Positions 1,122 through 26,346 of a stretch of 41,881 nucleotides of DNA are shown here, piece after piece. The DNA comes from Methylophilaceae bacterium (GTDB lineage Bacteria; Pseudomonadota; Gammaproteobacteria; Burkholderiales; Methylophilaceae). The translations under genes and the position numbers were made by a program. The notes beneath the pieces were generated by a model, which made no database searches, was not told the origin of the DNA, and worked only from the letters and a program-made list of their open reading frames with translations. The stretch spans positions 1-41,881 of the forward strand of contig JAOHSH010000007.1 in the NCBI GenBank assembly GCA_028122555.1, written 5' to 3'. The first letter of the stretch is position 1. Every line of letters begins with the position of its first letter.

Positions 1122-2483
1122 ATGCACATTCATATATTAGGTATATGTGGAACATTTATGGCAGGAATTGCTGCTTTAGCAAAAGCTAGTGGTCATAAAG
1201 TAACTGGATGCGATCAAAATGTATATCCACCCATGTCCACTCAACTAGAACAATTAGGTATAGAAATTACTGAAGGTTATAACGAAAACCAAATTAAATT
1301 AAATCCAGATATATTTATTATCGGGAATGTAATTTCACGAGAAAATCCTTTAATTGAATCTATATTGAATCGTAAACTTTTATATCAATCAGGACCTCAA
1401 TGGCTTTATGAAAATATTTTATATAATAAATGGGTTCTTGCTGTAGCAGGAACACATGGCAAAACTACCACATCTTCTATGTTAGCTTGGATCCTAGAGT
1501 TTAATGAATTAGCTCCAGGATTTTTAATAGGAGGAATACCAAATAATTTTAAAGTTTCAGCAAGACTACCAATTAATAATCAAAAAAATTCTCCAACTTT
1601 CTTTGTAATTGAGGCAGACGAGTATGACACCGCATTCTTTGATAAAAGGTCAAAGTTTATCCACTACAATCCTAATACCTTAGTTTTAAATAATCTTGAA
1701 TTTGACCATGCTGATATTTTTGAAAATATAGAACATATTGAAACACATTTTCATCATTTAATTAGAATAGTTCCAAGCATCGGAAAAATTATATTTAATG
1801 ATGATAGCGCTTCAATCAAAAAAGTATTAAAAAAAGGTTGTTGGTCGCAAAATGAAACTTTTGGCTCTAAAGGAAAGTGGTCTTACCAAAAGGTTAATGT
1901 AAATGAATTTGAAGTTTACTTTGAAAAGAAATCTCAAGGGAATCTTAAGTGGGATTTAATTGGCCATCATAATTCACTAAATGCTTTAGCAGCAATTGCA
2001 GCAGCAAAACATATAGGAATTACACCAGAAAAATCCATTGATGCATTAGCCAAATTTCAAAATGTAAAAAAAAGAATGGAGCTTATAGAATCAATAAAAA
2101 GTATAAATATTTATGATGATTTTGCACATCATCCTACAGCTATAGAAACTACTTTAGAAGGCTTAAGGAGTAAAATAGGTAATGACAGAATTTTAGCTGT
2201 TATTGAACCAAGTTCAAACACAATGAAATTAGGAAGTATGAAAAATGATTTACTAAAAAGTCTAAAAACAGCAGATATAATTTTTTGTTTTTCAAAAAAT
2301 TTAACATGGGACCCTAAATTCTTATTTAAAAATATTTCCAATGTAACTGTTATGACGGATATTGATATTTTGGCAAATAAAATTTTTAGTACTTGTCGCC
2401 CTAAAGATAATATAATTTTTATGAGTAATAGTGGATTTTCAGGACTTCAAAATAAAGTGGCTAAGATGTTAAAAAATGAATAA
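1122..2483 (+). CDS. mpl: UDP-N-acetylmuramate:L-alanyl-gamma-D-glutamyl-meso-diaminopimelate ligase
   Basis: Mpl is a cytoplasmic Mur-ligase-family enzyme that joins recycled murein tripeptide to UDP-MurNAc, saving peptidoglycan turnover products. The 453 residues are the usual length. The N-terminal Rossmann-like part opens with HILGICGTFMAG, the ATP-binding loop is AGTHGKTTTSSML near residue 109, and a Mur-ligase central segment (EADEYDTAFFD) and C-terminal domain (YDDFAHHPTAI) follow. GICGTFMAG is typical of Mpl rather than MurC. The gene follows metH by two bases, and its last codons overlap the next gene by 8 bases (ATGAATAA), indicating translational coupling. Confidence 0.95.
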   Translation: MHIHILGICGTFMAGIAALAKASGHKVTGCDQNVYPPMSTQLEQLGIEITEGYNENQIKLNPDIFIIGNVISRENPLIESILNRKLLYQSGPQWLYENILYNKWVLAVAGTHGKTTTSSMLAWILEFNELAPGFLIGGIPNNFKVSARLPINNQKNSPTFFVIEADEYDTAFFDKRSKFIHYNPNTLVLNNLEFDHADIFENIEHIETHFHHLIRIVPSIGKIIFNDDSASIKKVLKKGCWSQNETFGSKGKWSYQKVNVNEFEVYFEKKSQGNLKWDLIGHHNSLNALAAIAAAKHIGITPEKSIDALAKFQNVKKRMELIESIKSINIYDDFAHHPTAIETTLEGLRSKIGNDRILAVIEPSSNTMKLGSMKNDLLKSLKTADIIFCFSKNLTWDPKFLFKNISNVTVMTDIDILANKIFSTCRPKDNIIFMSNSGFSGLQNKVAKMLKNE

Positions 2484-3213
2484 TTTTAAAAAATATGGAT
2501 TTCTTATAGCAATTATTTTTTCAATCTTACTACACTTGATTTTTATAAATAATTTTTCTTTTAAAATTTTTCAGACTGATAACAAAGAAGATCTTAAAGA
2601 TTTTCAAGTGACCTTAATAGAATCGATTTCTTCTGAAGATAATTTATCCGATAAAGAAAAACCATCTTCGAAAGTTCCTTTAACTATTTCAAAAAAAAAT
2701 GCTGAAAAAAAAATTAATTTTAATATTATTAGCCAAAAAAAAGAAGATACTTCTCAAGAGAATACAAAATCTAAAAGTTCCCAAATTGATACATCAAGAA
2801 TTTTATCTCAAATAAGAAATATGAGTCTCTCAACTGAAACAGAAAATATTAAGATGCAAAAGAGAGTAAAATCTATTTCAGCCAGTACGACTGATTACTT
2901 ATATAAACTTTATTTTGAAGCATGGAGACAAAAAGTAGAGTCTATTGGTGCAATGAATTATCCGAAAGAAGCATCTGAGTTAGGTATGTTTGGTTCGCTT
3001 AGATTGACTGTGTCGCTTAACTCAGATGGAATGATTAAAAATTTATTTATTAATAAATCTTCCGGCTATAAGGAACTAGATCAGGCAGCTCTTAATATTG
3101 TTAAACTTGGGGAGCCTTACGCCAAATTTCCCGCAGAAATAAATAAAAATGTAGACATTATCAATATAACTCGTAAATGGAAGTTTACGGAGAAGAATAA
3201 CTTCTTTAAGTAA
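2476..3213 (+). CDS. TonB-family protein (C-terminal TonB domain)
   Basis: This 245-residue protein has a short basic N-terminus, one membrane segment (about residues 7-30), a charged Lys/Ser-rich linker with little proline, and a C-terminal TonB-type domain (about 145-240). In that domain SLRLTVSLNSDGMIKN and SSGYKELDQAALNIV match the conserved strand and helix. TonB proteins couple the inner-membrane proton-motive force to outer-membrane receptors. No exbB or exbD is adjacent, so I do not assign the symbol tonB; a TonB-like structural or transport role is also possible. The start overlaps the end of mpl. The gene runs convergently into hemE, with one base between the stop codons and no visible terminator. 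Confidence 0.8.
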   Translation: MNNFKKYGFLIAIIFSILLHLIFINNFSFKIFQTDNKEDLKDFQVTLIESISSEDNLSDKEKPSSKVPLTISKKNAEKKINFNIISQKKEDTSQENTKSKSSQIDTSRILSQIRNMSLSTETENIKMQKRVKSISASTTDYLYKLYFEAWRQKVESIGAMNYPKEASELGMFGSLRLTVSLNSDGMIKNLFINKSSGYKELDQAALNIVKLGEPYAKFPAEINKNVDIINITRKWKFTEKNNFFK

Positions 3214-20512: not shown

Positions 20513-21115
20513 TTACTGGTTAAATGCTAACTGCCGAATAAGGTGTTGTTCACATATATCATGTGCTCTTTGTTTAGCAGCAAGATATCCATTTAGATCG
20601 TATACATCCGATACAATATCAAATAAATCTGAATGAGGAGAATCTACTTCAATTTTTATTTTATTTAATTCGCTCATTCTTGAATCAAAAACAGGCCCCA
20701 TAAGAAAATGAGAAAAATTTGCTACAGTTAATGAAGGGGTATAGTCCATCGCAGATAAAAAATCTGTTTTAATTTTTACTGATTCAGGAATCTCAGTTAT
20801 TTCTGGGAAAGAAACTTTTAAAGAAACACTTTTACCATTAAGATTTTTTTTAAGAGAAGCAGCATTTTCTTTATATGTGGATATTGATAAATACAAAACA
20901 TCAACATCACATACTCCAGGTTTAATCATCCATCCAAATATATGCCCATTAACATTACTACCGTTTGTTGAATACCTTATAATGCCATCGATAAAAAAAT
21001 CAACAGTCCAGTTTTCATATTTAATTGCTTGAGAATCTTTAGCATGAGAGTAGCTGAATGGTAAAACAAACATAAAGACAATAAGTATTAACATAAATGC
21101 TTTTTCTAATTTCAA
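20513..21115 (-). CDS. Exported protein of unknown function
   Basis: I do not recognise this 200-residue protein. The start is a TTG preceded by AAGGAG at 8-9 bases, giving a basic-hydrophobic signal peptide (about residues 1-25) ending in SYSHAKD, a plausible signal peptidase I site. The mature part has no membrane segment and two cysteines (in GVCDVDVLY and HDICEQHL) that could form a disulfide. The TTG overlaps the TGA of the upstream lipoprotein-like ORF (TTGA), suggesting coupled translation. A downstream in-frame ATG would shorten the signal peptide by seven residues and remains possible. Confidence 0.65.
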   Translation of the reverse strand: MKLEKAFMLILIVFMFVLPFSYSHAKDSQAIKYENWTVDFFIDGIIRYSTNGSNVNGHIFGWMIKPGVCDVDVLYLSISTYKENAASLKKNLNGKSVSLKVSFPEITEIPESVKIKTDFLSAMDYTPSLTVANFSHFLMGPVFDSRMSELNKIKIEVDSPHSDLFDIVSDVYDLNGYLAAKQRAHDICEQHLIRQLAFNQ

Positions 21116-21408: not shown

Positions 21409-22716
21409 CTAGTTAGCAATATAAAGTTCGACATCGTTTGGCTCTCTTAAAGCTAATGCTGCGGTCATTAATTTTGCTTCATCTAAATTTTGCTCTGCAG
21501 CTTTTTCAAACCAATAATTAGCTTGATCTAAATCTTTTTTTACTGACTGGCCATTTTGGTAAAGAAGACCTAAGTGATACTGTGCTTGAGGTATATTATA
21601 TTTTGCAGCTCTAGTAAAATATTTGAAAGATTTTTTATGGTCCTTTGAGGTGCCTAAACCATAATGATGTAAAAATGCAATATTTAAATCGGCCTCGGGA
21701 ATTGAATGGTCTGATGCTTTTAAGTAATGACTCATTGCTTGAACATAGTCTTGATTAGTTCCACGCCCGTAGTGAGCCATCAAACCTAAATTAAATTCTG
21801 CTTCAAACATTCCTTGTTTTGCTGACTTTTTATACCATGCATACGCTTGATAATGATCTTGTGCTTGACTTGGTCCATAGTGATAAATTTGAGCCAAATT
21901 AAGTTGTGCTTCAGCAAGCCCCTGTTCTGCTGCAAGTTTATAATTCTCCATAGCTCGATCAAAATCATAATTAATTCCCTCTCCAGATAGTAATAATTTA
22001 GCTAAATTAAATTGAGCTTCTTTCATATTATTAGCTGCAGCTTTTTCATACCATTTAGCAGCTAAATGCATGTCTTTAATAGTTCCAATTCCGTAATGGT
22101 GCATTTGAGCTAAATTAAATTGAGCCTCTGTAACCCCTGCTACTGAAATTTTGCATTGATTAATATCTAAAGTTGTTTGGTCTTTTGCTGACTTTGAAAA
22201 CCATTCATAAGCTTTATATTGATCTTTATTTCTACCCAATCCGTATCGGTTCATTAGGCCTAAATTAAATTGTGCTTCGGGACTATTATGTATAGCAGCT
22301 TTTTCATAATATGAATAAGCCTCTGATAAATTTTTTACTTTCCCTTGTCCATAGTGATTAATTAATCCTAATTTAAAGTTAGCTTGTGTTAATCCTGATT
22401 CAGCTGCTCGAGTGAATAAATCTAGTGCACGTTGGTAATCTTTTGTTAACACTTTCCCATTATGATAATTTTCTGCGAATCTATACTGTGCTTTCGAAAT
22501 TTCTTTTTGACTAGGTGGTACTCCAAATCCTTTAAATTGATTTGTGTTATCAAACCAAGATGTCCAAAAAGTTTCTTGTTTACAATTCTCTGTATTTACT
22601 TTCTTAGTTTGATCAATTTTTTTCATTGGTTCATCATTTTGTTTTGCTACAGTCACACCAATTGCAGAAACTAAACCAAGTTGTGCTAAAACTAATATTA
22701 TTTTTTTGAATTTCAT
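21409..22716 (-). CDS. Exported Sel1-repeat protein
   Basis: A 435-residue protein with a signal peptide (about residues 1-24, ending near SAIGVTVAKQ) and about nine Sel1-type TPR repeats from about residue 75 to 420. Each is roughly 36 residues with the pattern AQFNLGLM-HYG-G--KD--KA--WY-KAA. Sel1 solenoids are protein-interaction scaffolds, often exported. Repeat 3 carries an insertion of about 14 residues with a Cys (NQCKISVAGV). GGGAAG precedes the ATG. It follows the membrane-anchored Sel1 protein, from which a terminator at 22728-22763 separates it, so it is probably also transcribed separately. The specific role is unknown. Confidence 0.8.
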   Translation of the reverse strand: MKFKKIILVLAQLGLVSAIGVTVAKQNDEPMKKIDQTKKVNTENCKQETFWTSWFDNTNQFKGFGVPPSQKEISKAQYRFAENYHNGKVLTKDYQRALDLFTRAAESGLTQANFKLGLINHYGQGKVKNLSEAYSYYEKAAIHNSPEAQFNLGLMNRYGLGRNKDQYKAYEWFSKSAKDQTTLDINQCKISVAGVTEAQFNLAQMHHYGIGTIKDMHLAAKWYEKAAANNMKEAQFNLAKLLLSGEGINYDFDRAMENYKLAAEQGLAEAQLNLAQIYHYGPSQAQDHYQAYAWYKKSAKQGMFEAEFNLGLMAHYGRGTNQDYVQAMSHYLKASDHSIPEADLNIAFLHHYGLGTSKDHKKSFKYFTRAAKYNIPQAQYHLGLLYQNGQSVKKDLDQANYWFEKAAEQNLDEAKLMTAALALREPNDVELYIAN

Positions 22717-22727
22717 AATCTTCCCTT

Positions 22728-22763
22728 AAAAAAAATGGTTACGCCTAAATGACGTAACCATTT
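22728..22763 (-). terminator. Rho-independent terminator after the membrane Sel1 gene
   Basis: On the minus strand AAATGGTTACG, a nine-base loop and CGTAACCATTT form a perfect 11-pair stem, followed by a run of Ts (complement of the As at 22728-22735). It lies 24 bases after the stop of the 233-residue gene and just before the ribosome-binding site of the exported Sel1 gene. It therefore separates the two units or attenuates read-through. Confidence 0.8.
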
Positions 22764-22786
22764 ATAAAAAAGTCAGATTAATATAA

Positions 22787-23488
22787 CTATTTATTAATCA
22801 TTTTCTTACTTATCATATATTCAATATTAAACTTTGCTCTCTGATTTCCTTGGTTAGCTGATTTTTGATACCATTCGTAAGCTTTTTCTGGATTTTTTTC
22901 TACACCGCTCAGTCCTTGCTCATAAATTAGCCCTATATTAAATTGCGCTTGGTGCTTATTTTGAAATTTAAGGCACCCATCTAGAGTTAATAATTCTGAA
23001 GAACAGTCAACTGCATTAACTATTGTTGTTTTTATTTTTGTCATCTGTTTTTTTTGTTTTGGCCAAAAAGCTGTTAATCTATTTCCCGTTTCATCCATGA
23101 CAATTTCCCAAAACGTTTCAGAAACTTGAACTTGCGTTGTTGGTACTTCTTGGACATCGGTGATATGAATACCATCTTTCATAGCATAAGAGAAAAAACT
23201 ACCCCCAATTAATAATGGAGCTAACCAATGGCCCTGGTCTCTTACTATTTTGCTTAAATTCAACGACGGTTTTTCTAAATACCCTATCTCTTCACATTTT
23301 TTAAGTATTTTTTGCAATAGAACATCATGATCTTTTTCTTGCCATTCTTTTTCGATTTTATTTTCATTTTCTTCAAATGCTGCTCGTACTAATCTTGCAT
23401 TCAATTGAGTTTTTTTATTTCCACCTTTGACCTTCTTACCATCGAAGGTATCGATCCATTGTCTTTTTTCTAAGTCTTTTTTTACCAT
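22787..23488 (-). CDS. Single-pass membrane protein with C-terminal Sel1 repeat; possible anti-sigma-like regulator
   Basis: A 233-residue protein in three parts. First comes a charged N-terminal region of about 85 residues with no signal peptide, rich in Lys/Glu and probably cytoplasmic. Next is one membrane segment (about 88-104, WLAPLLIGGSFFSYAM). Last is an outer part with a Cys pair (VDCSSELLTLDGC) and a Sel1 repeat (about 180-225, QAQFNIGLIYEQG to YEWYQKSANQG). The topology of short cytoplasmic domain, membrane segment and periplasmic sensor module resembles membrane anti-sigma factors. It starts 11 bases after an ECF-sigma-like gene, as anti-sigma genes usually do. I see no known anti-sigma sequence motif, so this role is inferred from position and topology. 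Confidence 0.6.
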   Translation of the reverse strand: MVKKDLEKRQWIDTFDGKKVKGGNKKTQLNARLVRAAFEENENKIEKEWQEKDHDVLLQKILKKCEEIGYLEKPSLNLSKIVRDQGHWLAPLLIGGSFFSYAMKDGIHITDVQEVPTTQVQVSETFWEIVMDETGNRLTAFWPKQKKQMTKIKTTIVNAVDCSSELLTLDGCLKFQNKHQAQFNIGLIYEQGLSGVEKNPEKAYEWYQKSANQGNQRAKFNIEYMISKKMINK

Positions 23489-23499
23489 CTAATTCTTCC

Positions 23500-24291
23500 T
23501 CAATCTTTTTTTAAATTTGAATATATACCAATTTCATTACATGGGGCAAAATAGGATCTTGCTTTTTCTTTACTAGCTCTTATAAATTCTCTTTGTGTTG
23601 CTTCTTTTCTATTTTGCATATTAGCAATATCTTTAATTTTTATACCGCTAAGTTGCATTGCTATTGCTTCTGCTCCCTCAGCACTTACTTCTCTAGCAAA
23701 TTTTTCTAATTTGCTTTTAATACATTCTTCGATCAATTGTTGCTTATTAATTTCATCATCAAATGATAATTCTCCATCTTGCTCTGTCTCTTTTTTTTCA
23801 CTTTTAAATGATAATTCTCCATCTTTTTTTGGTTCAAAATATCTACTTTGACTCGCAGCCCGCGCTGCTTCTTCAGGTATATCTGTTACCACTTCTCTTT
23901 GTTTTTGTTTTCCCATTTTCCTCTCAAGATCTATTACTAATAATTTACATTTCCAAAAAGCAAAAGCTTCTAAATTATTAATTACAGGAGCTTTTTTTTC
24001 TTTAGCAAGCTCTTCTTGACTTAAAACTTTGCCACCTGTTTTGAATCGTCTCGAAATATATTCGAAAAATTGAATTACTATTTCGTCTGCTTCATCGTTA
24101 TTCCAAGTCCTTCTTCGAATTGTTCTCCATAACTTAGTATGCTTATAAGATGAATTTTTATTTACCTCTTTTTTAATTTTTTTGTCATCATCTTTTGGCG
24201 TTGTTAACAATTCGTAATACGCAGAAACCCCTTTAAGTCTGCGTTCTTTATCATCACTTTCAAGTAATTTTAAAATTTCCTCTTTTTGCAT
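23500..24291 (-). CDS. ECF-like RNA polymerase sigma factor (divergent, putative)
   Basis: A 263-residue protein. Residues about 60-130 resemble sigma region 2: WNNDEADEIVIQFFEYISRRF is like the core-binding helix, and NLEAFAFWKCKLLVIDLERK is like the NLRAWLFRIARNLAIDRLRR pattern of ECF factors. Residues about 200-250 (LSGIKIKDIANMQNRKEA, then FIRASKEKARSYFAPC) resemble the region 4 helix-turn-helix and final helix. The linker (about 145-185) is long and charged and carries a duplicated DGELSF. No other DNA-binding family fits as well, but the match is from pattern reading only. A generic phage-type or regulatory helix-turn-helix protein is the alternative. Confidence 0.5.
   Translation of the reverse strand: MQKEEILKLLESDDKERRLKGVSAYYELLTTPKDDDKKIKKEVNKNSSYKHTKLWRTIRRRTWNNDEADEIVIQFFEYISRRFKTGGKVLSQEELAKEKKAPVINNLEAFAFWKCKLLVIDLERKMGKQKQREVVTDIPEEAARAASQSRYFEPKKDGELSFKSEKKETEQDGELSFDDEINKQQLIEECIKSKLEKFAREVSAEGAEAIAMQLSGIKIKDIANMQNRKEATQREFIRASKEKARSYFAPCNEIGIYSNLKKD
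23761..23825. repeat. 20-bp direct repeat within the sigma-like gene
   Basis: AAATGATAATTCTCCATCTT occurs at 23761-23780 and again, identical, at 23806-23825. The offset of 45 bases keeps the frame and duplicates the residues DGELSF in the inter-domain linker. The bases after each copy differ, so this is not a full 45-base tandem duplication. Confidence 0.9.
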
Positions 24292-24376
24292 TCTTTCCCC
24301 TGTTTTTTATTAGACGCTATTACTTGTTCATAAGTCAGGATTTTCATTAGTTTTATCTAATTAGCATAATAAACTG

Positions 24377-24495
24377 ACTTTTTTTTCACATTAAACGTCA
24401 ATAGTTGGTAATAGTTCTTATTTCCTCCTGTGAAGTTACTATTACCGCAGGGCCTGAGCGATATCCAGGCCACCTTTTATTTTTTTATTTTTTTT
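24377..24495 (+). ncRNA. Candidate small RNA with anti-Shine-Dalgarno loop
   Basis: Plus-strand sequence between two minus-strand genes. GGTAATAGT (24407-24415) pairs perfectly with ACTATTACC (24438-24446). Inside, ATTTC (24420-24424) pairs with GAAGT (24432-24436) using one U-G, leaving the seven-base loop CUCCUGU. A second GC-rich hairpin with a long U-rich tail follows (24451-24495). On the minus strand the U-G becomes a C/A mismatch and no T-run follows, so a plus-strand RNA is favoured. No plus-strand coding gene needs this terminator. A weak promoter (TTTTCA at 24341, CATAAT at 24365, spacing 18) would start it near 24377; that 5' end is a guess. Confidence 0.4.
24451..24495 (+). terminator. 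Rho-independent terminator of the candidate small RNA
   Basis: GGCCTG (24451-24456), a nine-base loop and CAGGCC (24466-24471) form a perfect six-pair GC-rich stem. Three bases later comes a T-rich tail running to 24495. The tail is also the 3' coding end of the convergent 83-residue gene on the other strand. Confidence 0.55.
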
Positions 24496-24728
24496 GGATT
24501 TTCAATATTTAGATTTAAATCAATTCCATCTACGCCCTGTAAAAATTGTTTGGTATATTTCATTTTTTGATTTTTTGATTTTTTGATTTTTTTGATTACA
24601 TCATTATCTTTTAAATTAAAAAATACAAAGATAATTGAAATTAGAACAATAATAATTGAAAGTATCAGAACTCCCATAATAATTTCTCTAAAATAAATAT
24701 CGAAGTATGTTTGGAGAATATTAGCCAT
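24477..24728 (-). CDS. Small single-pass membrane protein of unknown function
   Basis: An 83-residue frame with a hydrophobic segment (about residues 14-37, IIMGVLILSIIIVLISIIF) followed by a Lys/Asn-rich cytoplasmic-type tail. I recognise no family. There is no clear ribosome-binding site before the ATG. The tail is encoded by an eight-base tandem repeat and an A-rich tract, so part of it may be low-complexity by composition rather than selection. It is divergent from the 42-residue ORF at 24808 and lies upstream of the sigma-like gene. Coding status is uncertain. Confidence 0.45.
   Translation of the reverse strand: MANILQTYFDIYFREIIMGVLILSIIIVLISIIFVFFNLKDNDVIKKIKKSKNQKMKYTKQFLQGVDGIDLNLNIENPKKIKK
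24562..24597. repeat. Octamer tandem repeat inside the 83-residue ORF
   Basis: On the plus strand ATTTTTTG is repeated three times without change (24562-24585), followed by a nine-base variant (24586-24594) and a partial unit. The unit length of eight is not a multiple of three, so gain or loss of one copy would shift the reading frame of the overlapping minus-strand gene. Confidence 0.85.
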
Positions 24729-24807
24729 AGTTTTTATTTTAAAATTTATGTTTTAATTATAATGTGTTAATGTTGCTGTGGTATTAATTTTTTGAAGGAT
24801 TAATTTT

Positions 24808-24936
24808 ATGTTGAAAAATATTATTGTTTTAGTCATTATCTTTTTAGCTGGGTATTATGCATATTCTATGTATGGAGGTGGGGATGGAATAGCTCCTATG
24901 GATGCTTCTGATTTACCGCCGTTAACTTCTGAGTAA
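24808..24936 (+). CDS. Small membrane protein (42 residues)
   Basis: An ATG preceded by AAGGA at 8 bases opens a 42-codon frame: a short N-terminus, one hydrophobic segment (about residues 4-20, NIIVLVIIFLAGYYAYS), a Gly-rich turn and an acidic, Pro-containing tail (DLPPLTSE). A strong bidirectional terminator follows 16 bases after the stop, as expected of a one-gene transcript. A TATAAT at 24758-24763 could be its -10 element, though the -35 is poor. I recognise no family; it may be a small membrane-complex subunit. Confidence 0.6.
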   Translation: MLKNIIVLVIIFLAGYYAYSMYGGGDGIAPMDASDLPPLTSE

Positions 24937-24952
24937 AGATAGTCAAATTTTG

Positions 24953-24980
24953 AAAAGGCTTATTTTATAAGCCTTTTTTT
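24953..24980. terminator. Bidirectional terminator between the 42-residue gene and pntB
   Basis: AAAAGGCTTA (24953-24962), the loop TTTTA and TAAGCCTTTT (24968-24977) form a perfect ten-pair stem with a T-run on the plus side and TTTTCAAAATTT on the minus side. It lies between convergent genes and overlaps the pntB stop codon. Confidence 0.85.
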
Positions 24981-26346
24981 AATCGATTGATTTAATCAAA
25001 TCTTCAACAACTTTTTTTGCATCACCAAATACCATCATAGTTTTATCTAAATAAAAAAGTTCATTATCTAGACCAGCATATCCTGGAGCCATTGACCTTT
25101 TATTTACTATTATCATTTTTGCTTTTTCGGCTTCTAAAACTGGCATCCCATAAATAGCACTGCCTGGTGTCTTCGCTGCTGGATTTACAACATCATTAGC
25201 GCCAATTACAAGAACAACGTCTGTTTGCCCAAATTCACTATTAATATCGTCCATTTCAACAACTTGTTCATATGGAACATCTGCTTCTGCCAACAAAACA
25301 TTCATGTGGCCTGGCATTCTTCCAGCTACTGGATGAATTGCATATTTGACATCGACTCCCATAGCTATTAATTTTGTAGTTAGTTCTTGCAGGGCATGTT
25401 GAGCTCTTGCAACTGCTAACCCATAGCCAGGAACAATAATAACGGTATCTGCATTAGTAAGTAAGAATGATGCATCATCAGCAGAGCCTGATTTTACAGG
25501 TTTCTCAGTTTGAGATGCTGTATCTGAAGCAATATCTGATCCGAAGCCACCTAACATCACTGAAATAATAGATCTGTTCATTGCTTTGCACATAATATAA
25601 GATAAAATTGCACCTGATGAACCAACACATGCCCCTGCAATAATTAATACTGAATTGTTTAAAGTAAATCCAATACCTGCAGCCGCCCATCCAGAATAAC
25701 TATTGAGCATCGAAACAACAACTGGCATGTCTGCTCCGCCTATTGGAATAATTAAAGTTATTCCAAGAATTAAAGCAATGGTAACCATAATAAAAAAAGC
25801 ACTTATTGACTCTGTTTGGAAATAAATTGTTCCAAAGAAAATCATAGCTAATGCTAATAATAGATTAATCCAATGTTGAGCCTTAAATACAGTAGCTTTA
25901 GCCCCAAATTTCCCTGATAATTTTCCAAATGCAATTACGGATGCAGTAAATGTAATTGCTCCAATGAATGCTCCGATAAATAATTCAAATCTTTGAACTA
26001 TAGAGTGAGCCTCACCCGCATTTAATACTGCTGCAATAGCAATTAAAACAGCTGCAAGTCCTACAAAAGAATGCATTAGTGCTACTAATTCTGGCATCTT
26101 TGTCATCTGGACTGTCTTGGCTGCAAATATTCCGATACACGCGCCAAGCAACAACGGCACAAATATAAATAAAGTTATTAGATTCTGTCCTACCCATAAA
26201 GTAGCTACAACAGCAATAGTCATACCGATCATGCCAAATAAGTTACCTTGTCTAGCAGAAGTAGGTGATGACAAACCCTTTAAAGCTAATATAAAAAATA
26301 TCGCAGATACTAAATATGCCGACATTGATAATGTTTGTATTGTCAT
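24979..26346 (-). CDS. pntB: NAD(P) transhydrogenase, beta subunit
   Basis: PntB carries the membrane helices and the NADP(H)-binding domain III of the proton-pumping transhydrogenase, which uses the proton-motive force to make NADPH from NADH. The 455 residues have about nine hydrophobic segments up to about residue 265. Domain III begins with [18 protein letters not shown], then [33 protein letters not shown] and [17 protein letters not shown]. The start overlaps the pntAB stop by 4 bases (ATGA). It is the last gene of the pntAA-pntAB-pntB operon and ends in a bidirectional terminator. Confidence 0.97.

Follow-up and report, generated by a model that had tools for sequence, protein, structure and literature searches.

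Results

Genes and features of the locus

The window analyzed here is the whole stretch of 41,881 bases, part of an 857-kb assembly that is 69% complete and whose group we take, from its small genomes and its taxonomy, to be an OM43-like aquatic lineage. Along the minus strand it carries, in this order, a gene that is presumably pntB, an 83-aa ORF, a hairpin region, a sigma gene, a gene whose product combines a hydrophobic segment with a Sel1 repeat, and a Sel1-type repeat gene (21409-22716, minus strand; named by eye). Alignment with relatives, at E-values from 1.9e-96 to 4.3e-4, identifies the sigma gene (23500-24291, minus strand; 263 aa), which is divergent from the hairpins, as ECF-like. 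The window protein has no direct match in Pfam or NCBIfam; its relative in genome G017 passes Pfam Sigma70_r2 (30.9 bits, cut-off 24), with region 4 (13.7 vs 25.7 bits) and TIGR02937 (38.0 vs 42.9) both below cut-off. Together with the family alignment, this relative indicates that the adjacent regulator is an ECF sigma factor. The sigma proteins of the window and of G028 (245 aa) are longer than most relatives (about 185-220 aa). A phage origin of the sigma protein was rejected, with no match among the phage records searched.

The gene at 22787-23488 (minus strand) encodes an N-terminal domain, a hydrophobic segment and one Sel1 repeat (48.2 bits), and because of its operon position its product is a putative anti-sigma factor. 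The 83-aa ORF (24477-24728, minus strand) is of a small membrane type and converges tail to tail with the RNA described below; ORFs occupy the same position in four related loci (L010, L011, L012, and L052). Between it and pntB, at about 24808-24985 on the plus strand, a small 41-aa membrane-type ORF with a terminator-like repeat after it was seen by eye.

A two-hairpin RNA element with an exposed CUCCUGU loop

Between the sigma gene and the 83-aa ORF lies a conserved two-hairpin RNA element (24406-24475, plus strand), which the covariance model matches at 89 bits, the window sequence being included in that model. Both hairpins and the CUCCUGU loop that the first-pass annotation had described on the plus strand are present by sequence and by folding. 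In stem-loop 1 (24407-24446, plus strand), supported by folding and covariation, 24407-24415 (GGUAAUAGU) pairs with 24438-24446 (ACUAUUACC) over nine pairs, and an inner stem (24420-24424/24432-24436, AUUUC/GAAGU, with one U-G on the plus strand) closes the apical loop CUCCUGU (24425-24431, plus strand), which is anti-Shine–Dalgarno-like. Stem-loop 2 (24451-24471, plus strand), in which 24451-24456 pairs with 24466-24471, is likewise supported by folding and covariation and is the probable terminator hairpin of the RNA; after ACC comes a U-rich tail (24475-24495, plus strand), the predicted 3′ end and of the U-rich kind through which Hfq would bind an Hfq-dependent sRNA, and the 5′ end is predicted near 24406.

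RNAfold reproduces the outer stem identically, with slightly different apical pairing. The plus-strand segment 24406-24488 has a folding energy of -22.7 kcal/mol (z -3.3; none of 200 shuffles equal or better). The interval originally singled out, 24377-24495, does hold the element but also takes in most of the promoter at 24374-24399, and folds with z -2.6 (equaled by 2 of 200 shuffles). On the minus strand the fold is nearly as stable (-22.4 kcal/mol, z -2.85, equaled by 2 of 200 shuffles), so that folding alone does not decide the strand. A simple terminator scan of 23400-25600 returned no match, because ACC separates the stem from the U run and the loop has nine bases. Read on the minus strand, part of the T run codes for the lysine-rich end of the 83-aa ORF. 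A U run directly follows the second stem in L038 and L052.

A candidate pseudoknot (24446-24460, plus strand) would join CGC at 24446-24448 to GCG at 24458-24460; 97% of its cells are paired over 22 sequences, but since these pairs are nearly invariant, this is no more than suggestive. Rfam 15 gave no match at the gathering threshold across the whole window and none at E up to 1 in the window, L053, and L054, and no tRNA or tmRNA was found. The search of the window's own assembly for a second DNA copy returned only short, low-scoring matches, and the covariance model finds one copy there.

Conservation and covariation

A first covariance model, built from nine sequences (alignment A2), found 22 copies in 18 of the 31 genomes of the genus (E up to 0.1; weakest 0.053). 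A second, built from these 22 copies and run with stricter filters across the family, matched 18 of 187 Methylophilaceae genomes, all in the genus, and none of the 156 others. In the 22-sequence alignment (A3), 83.1% of cells pair against 68.4% after shuffling, 14 of 15 stem pairs show change on both sides, and the covariation score is 0.492 against 0.254, a value reached in 0 of 500 shuffles; when the partner is slid, all measures drop and are much worse. Further pair types are not above shuffles (79/500), and since A3 was fitted to the model, it leans toward it. The nine-sequence MAFFT alignment, which is unfitted, gives 81.8% paired cells against 77.6% shuffled (3/500) and a covariation score of 0.252 against 0.193 (12/500), with slid versions pairing at most 53%; double-change pairs (59/500) and further pair types (487/500) are not above shuffles in this alignment. 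Preservation of the stems by compensatory changes, on which the first-pass annotation had staked its RNA, held up when checked on these alignments. The CCTCCTG loop is present in all nine sequences of A2 and in 15 of the 22 of A3, varying in L053, L057, and L060-L064. We regard the hairpins as confirmed and conserved, with the RNA on the plus strand, and the earlier claim of a plus-strand RNA with an exposed CUCCU beside the sigma gene as supported.

Three genomic contexts of the element

The 22 copies fall into three contexts. Ten are divergent from the sigma gene (the window, L010, L011, L012, L038, L039, L040, L052, L056, and L064, the last with a broken sigma frame); four are leader-like and stand directly behind an ECF-type motif (L060, L062, and L063, where a gene follows, and L057, where the contig ends); and eight are intercistronic and in gene sense (L034, L036, L053, L054, L055, L058, L059, and L061). 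A free sRNA is therefore not the sole form, since 12 of 22 copies lie within or head mRNAs.

Such placement would be expected if the element were mainly a cis-acting part of ECF-regulon mRNAs, in leaders or between cistrons and perhaps answering to a ligand or protein, with the divergent copy detached and its free transcript a decoy for that ligand or protein. In line with this account, sequence is conserved in the second hairpin, its CGC/GCG included, and an 85-aa gene, detected in 10 of 31 genomes, adjoins the element in all ten; the element follows the gene in eight and precedes it in two. However, the loops of the second hairpin are group-specific (AGCGAUAU vs GUGCGAAAA), and in the assembly to which the window belongs, 69% complete, the element is present but no 85-aa gene was detected. 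Nor do the loops match their own downstream ribosome-binding sites better than those of other loci: in a swap test over nine loci, own pairs reached -8.8 and mismatched pairs -9.0 kcal/mol. Cis pairing at L062 had looked striking by eye (10/11) before this test came out negative; L034, L036, and L057 were omitted from it because no gene lies close downstream in the available sequence. We consider a mainly cis-acting element unlikely. No Pfam family matches the 85-aa protein above cut-off; its own family (L053 1237-1494 and relatives) is a candidate for an RNA-binding protein.

With a strong match to the sigma profile set at E of at most 1e-25, 21 of the 31 genomes have a strong sigma match and 15 of these 21 also carry a model match. 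In five of the remaining six (G001, G003, G006, G011, and G015) the corresponding divergent position is taken by another kind of RNA-like region, and in the sixth, G016, no element was seen by motif within the 2,482 bases examined. Three genomes have a model match without a strong sigma match (G009, G021, and G025; 84, 84, and 61% complete). At L031, L032, L033, L035, and L037 a longer RNA-like region lies upstream of sigma, with CCUCC, a CGCC/GGCG pseudoknot-like motif and the promoter variant CTGAC..CATC; these regions stand outside the 22 because the model does not match them.

Several further features were seen beside the element. A Fur-box-like sequence, AATGATAATGATTCGCA, lies just 3′ of it in L038, L039, L040, L052, and L056; none was noticed within 90 bases behind the window element. 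At L061 the element is followed by a VIT/VWA protein (1583-3064, cut by the locus end) that is close to TIGR03788, a marine proteobacterial sortase target family (504.7 bits, cut-off 551.65), and at L060 a VIT/VWA-like protein, similar by eye only, lies on the minus strand downstream of the element.

ECF-type promoter motifs and the coding strand of the RNA

The first-pass annotation had left the 5′ end and promoter uncertain. An ECF-type motif, CTGAC-N17-CGTC (24374-24399, plus strand), now stands upstream of the element, its CGTC ending 6 nt before it, and a motif search places a divergent counterpart, CTGAC-N17-CGTCTA (24311-24338, minus strand), before the sigma operon; the upstream promoter of the RNA thus matches that of the sigma factor's own operon. 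The strict motif has exactly two matches in the 857-kb assembly, namely this divergent pair (reversed control, one). The looser motif has four, three of them in this module, a count that is uninformative by itself because the reversed control gives five. The third of these motifs (22751-22776, minus strand) lies upstream of the Sel1-type repeat gene. It falls partly inside an inverted repeat (22735-22761) followed by a T run, and in L039 and L040 both arms of the repeat have changed in step. The region (22728-22776, minus strand) looks like a sigma-operon terminator that overlaps the promoter of the gene behind it.

Among the ten divergent copies, CTGAC-N16/17-CGTC stands 6-7 nt ahead of the element in seven; as searched, it is absent from L052, L056, and L064, where weaker variants are seen by eye. 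A motif faces the sigma gene in nine of the ten divergent loci, L056 being the exception. TGAC-N-C(A/G)TC occurs upstream of 7/10 divergent, 4/4 leader-like and 0/8 intercistronic copies, and in the leader-like copies CGTC ends 7, 7, 8, and 19 nt before the element. As transcription usually starts six to eight bases after the -10 element, this spacing predicts a transcript start within the first one or two bases of stem-loop 1.

If the function lay instead on the minus strand, the structure could belong to the 3′ untranslated region of the 83-aa gene or to the sigma leader, its loop bound by a CsrA-like protein; the nearly equal minus-strand fold and the AGGAGG that this loop carries fit such a role. 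Against it, the ECF-type promoter is directed toward the plus strand at a nearly fixed spacing, every one of the 11 mRNA-type copies for which a gene is visible lies in plus sense (at L057 the contig ends first), and wobble cells comprise 21 G-U against 9 A-C. In addition, the sigma operon's own promoter motif sits downstream of the element. Promoter direction, the sense of the mRNA-type copies and the G-U excess thus favor the plus strand, and a minus-strand function is very improbable. The wobble and the U tail had earlier been cited for the plus strand; the wobble argument gains from the G-U excess, whereas the long U run of the window is not kept in all relatives. The idea of a mere transcription terminator or of chance inverted repeats with no regulatory role can hardly be right, for although the second hairpin is terminator-like in the window, L038, and L052, stem 1 covaries, CCTCCTG recurs throughout A2, and the element is promoter-proximal, with leader copies upstream of genes.

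Candidate targets of the loop

The loop is of the CCUCC type, conserved and exposed, as expected of an anti-Shine–Dalgarno RNA. Titration of a GGA-binding regulator, the other function initially suggested for it, appears unsupported, because the plus strand exposes CCUCC rather than GGA. Duplexes of the loop with ribosome-binding sites were ranked in eight genomes over 32-56 sampled genes each. The genes came from the window and from 20 stretches of 20 kb, as ORFs of 120 aa or more whose ATG starts were assigned by script, and the ranks refer to these sampled stretches. The sigma gene, proposed at the outset as a possible target, has the best-pairing site in five of the eight (G000, G014, G019, G024, and G026), but it comes fifth in two others, G004 and G028, and seventh in the last, G017. 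A swap test in the eight genomes, which left out L056 and L064 of the ten divergent copies, shows no co-evolution of loop and sigma site (own -14.05, mismatched -14.56 kcal/mol). For plain 16S pairing, too, most genomes place the sigma site close to the top; with mismatched pairs as good and 16S pairing high, a strong Shine–Dalgarno sequence could suffice without co-evolution. Another gene of the module, for a secreted protein (window counterpart 20513-21115), ranks first in G028 and second in G004 and is outside the top six of G000.

The choice of a DUF1097 membrane-protein gene followed from a search for the pattern ACAGGAGGA ahead of ATG, in which it recurred; 14 of the 31 genomes carry it. 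With flanks shuffled, its pairing goes beyond the Shine–Dalgarno sequence in G000 (p 0.0015) and G004 (p 0.0005), two genomes with a common target sequence. In the other four of the six (G014, G019, G024, and G026) it does not exceed chance, the p values in this group being 0.83, 0.17, 0.17, and 0.33. As a genus-wide target the gene was rejected, both on this account and because the ACAGGAGGA site also occurs in G002 and G016, where the model finds no element. When RNAs are paired with the G000 site, the closest four (those of G000, G028, G017, and G004) reach -28.3 to -34.8, compared with -17.8 to -23.9 for the remaining twelve; in G028 and G017 the gene itself was not detected. The sigma mRNA, by way of feedback, appears to be the most general target candidate and DUF1097 a lineage-specific one, and since the swap tests show no loop–site co-evolution, candidates is what they are.

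Discussion

A conserved, covarying element, its position divergent from the sigma gene and a matching strict promoter pair make it very likely that the locus encodes an ECF-driven sRNA with a CUCCUGU loop. To the hairpins already recognized in the first-pass annotation, the present analysis adds the pair of divergent promoter motifs, the recurrence of the element in leaders and between cistrons, and the linked 85-aa gene. From structure, covariation, conserved position and motif pair, all of them read from sequence, we infer how such an RNA may be transcribed, depend on the sigma factor, pair and regulate. The matching motifs suggest that the ECF sigma factor would drive a divergent promoter pair, serving its own operon and the RNA, and polymerase carrying it would transcribe a plus-strand RNA of ~75-85 nt that starts at 24406 and ends at about 24480-24490. 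The first hairpin would expose CUCCUGU and the second would end the transcript. By pairing with strong Shine–Dalgarno sequences, the loop may lower translation of selected mRNAs, the best candidates being the sigma mRNA (negative feedback) and, in the window's lineage, the DUF1097 gene; the RNA would be the repressing arm of a sigma factor with very few recognizable promoters. Action by Shine–Dalgarno pairing is the mode toward which the balance leans, and we hold with moderate confidence the account as a whole, in which a sigma-driven, two-hairpin sRNA covers Shine–Dalgarno sites to repress selected mRNAs.

MicA, RybB, and MicL of Escherichia coli are sigma-E-dependent sRNAs. In Acinetobacter, the ECF sigma factor SigAb has a small direct regulon that includes the sRNA SabS, according to the available text of PMC12153292, whose references also name MicL. 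The RNA described here would resemble SabS, MicA, RybB, and MicL in its membership of a small direct ECF regulon; it differs from them in its position, divergent from the gene of the sigma factor itself, and in having a module that is found again in mRNA leaders; the sequence relation to these RNAs was compared through Rfam. Neisseria meningitidis is also betaproteobacterial. Its NmsR sibling sRNAs have a UC-rich single-stranded loop and a linker that are partly complementary to the Shine–Dalgarno sequences of their targets (PMC5362039, available portion). The UC-rich loop complementary to Shine–Dalgarno sequences is a shared feature, whereas the NmsR RNAs are tandem siblings with three stem-loops and belong to the stringent response rather than to an ECF sigma factor. 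The Caulobacter sRNA GsrN depends on sigma-T and, in contrast to the RNA described here, is not known to be adjacent to its sigma gene. It is a stress sRNA whose C-rich 5′ loop pairs with G-rich mRNA leaders (PMC5869019, available portion). The C-rich loop is common to both; unlike the RNA proposed here, GsrN activates translation, that of katG. The CcsR1-4 RNAs of Rhodobacter carry CCUCC loops. They are cotranscribed with ccaF1, the gene of a small RNA-binding protein, and in the same genus StsR lowers rpoE mRNA as feedback (both from the available part of PMC8307010). The ccaF1–CcsR arrangement is the nearest parallel to the intercistronic copies after the 85-aa gene, and StsR the nearest for feedback. 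CcsR1-4 differ in that they are processed out of a 3′ UTR and are governed by other stress sigma factors, and the 85-aa protein lacks a Pfam match above cut-off. The literature on ECF-linked sRNAs held no description of this RNA among the matches listed, subscription papers being mostly outside its scope, and among the matches listed for sRNAs of this bacterial group none described one.

Streamlined aquatic methylotrophs keep few regulators. With about three recognizable sigma promoters in an incomplete assembly, a built-in anti-Shine–Dalgarno RNA would provide a repressing response at little genomic cost. The occurrence of one module as an sRNA, a leader and an intercistronic RNA would also permit a direct test of whether sRNAs arise from leaders or the reverse. 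A further, rather doubtful, proposal is that a single module serves one ECF regulon in all three forms: as a free anti-Shine–Dalgarno sRNA divergent from the sigma gene, as a 5′ leader that begins at +1 of further promoters of this kind, and as an intercistronic element bound by the small protein. If this is true, then the free RNA would repress translation and, as a decoy, also determine how much of that protein is present, and the sigma factor, the RNA and the protein would form a self-contained circuit in genome-streamlined aquatic bacteria.
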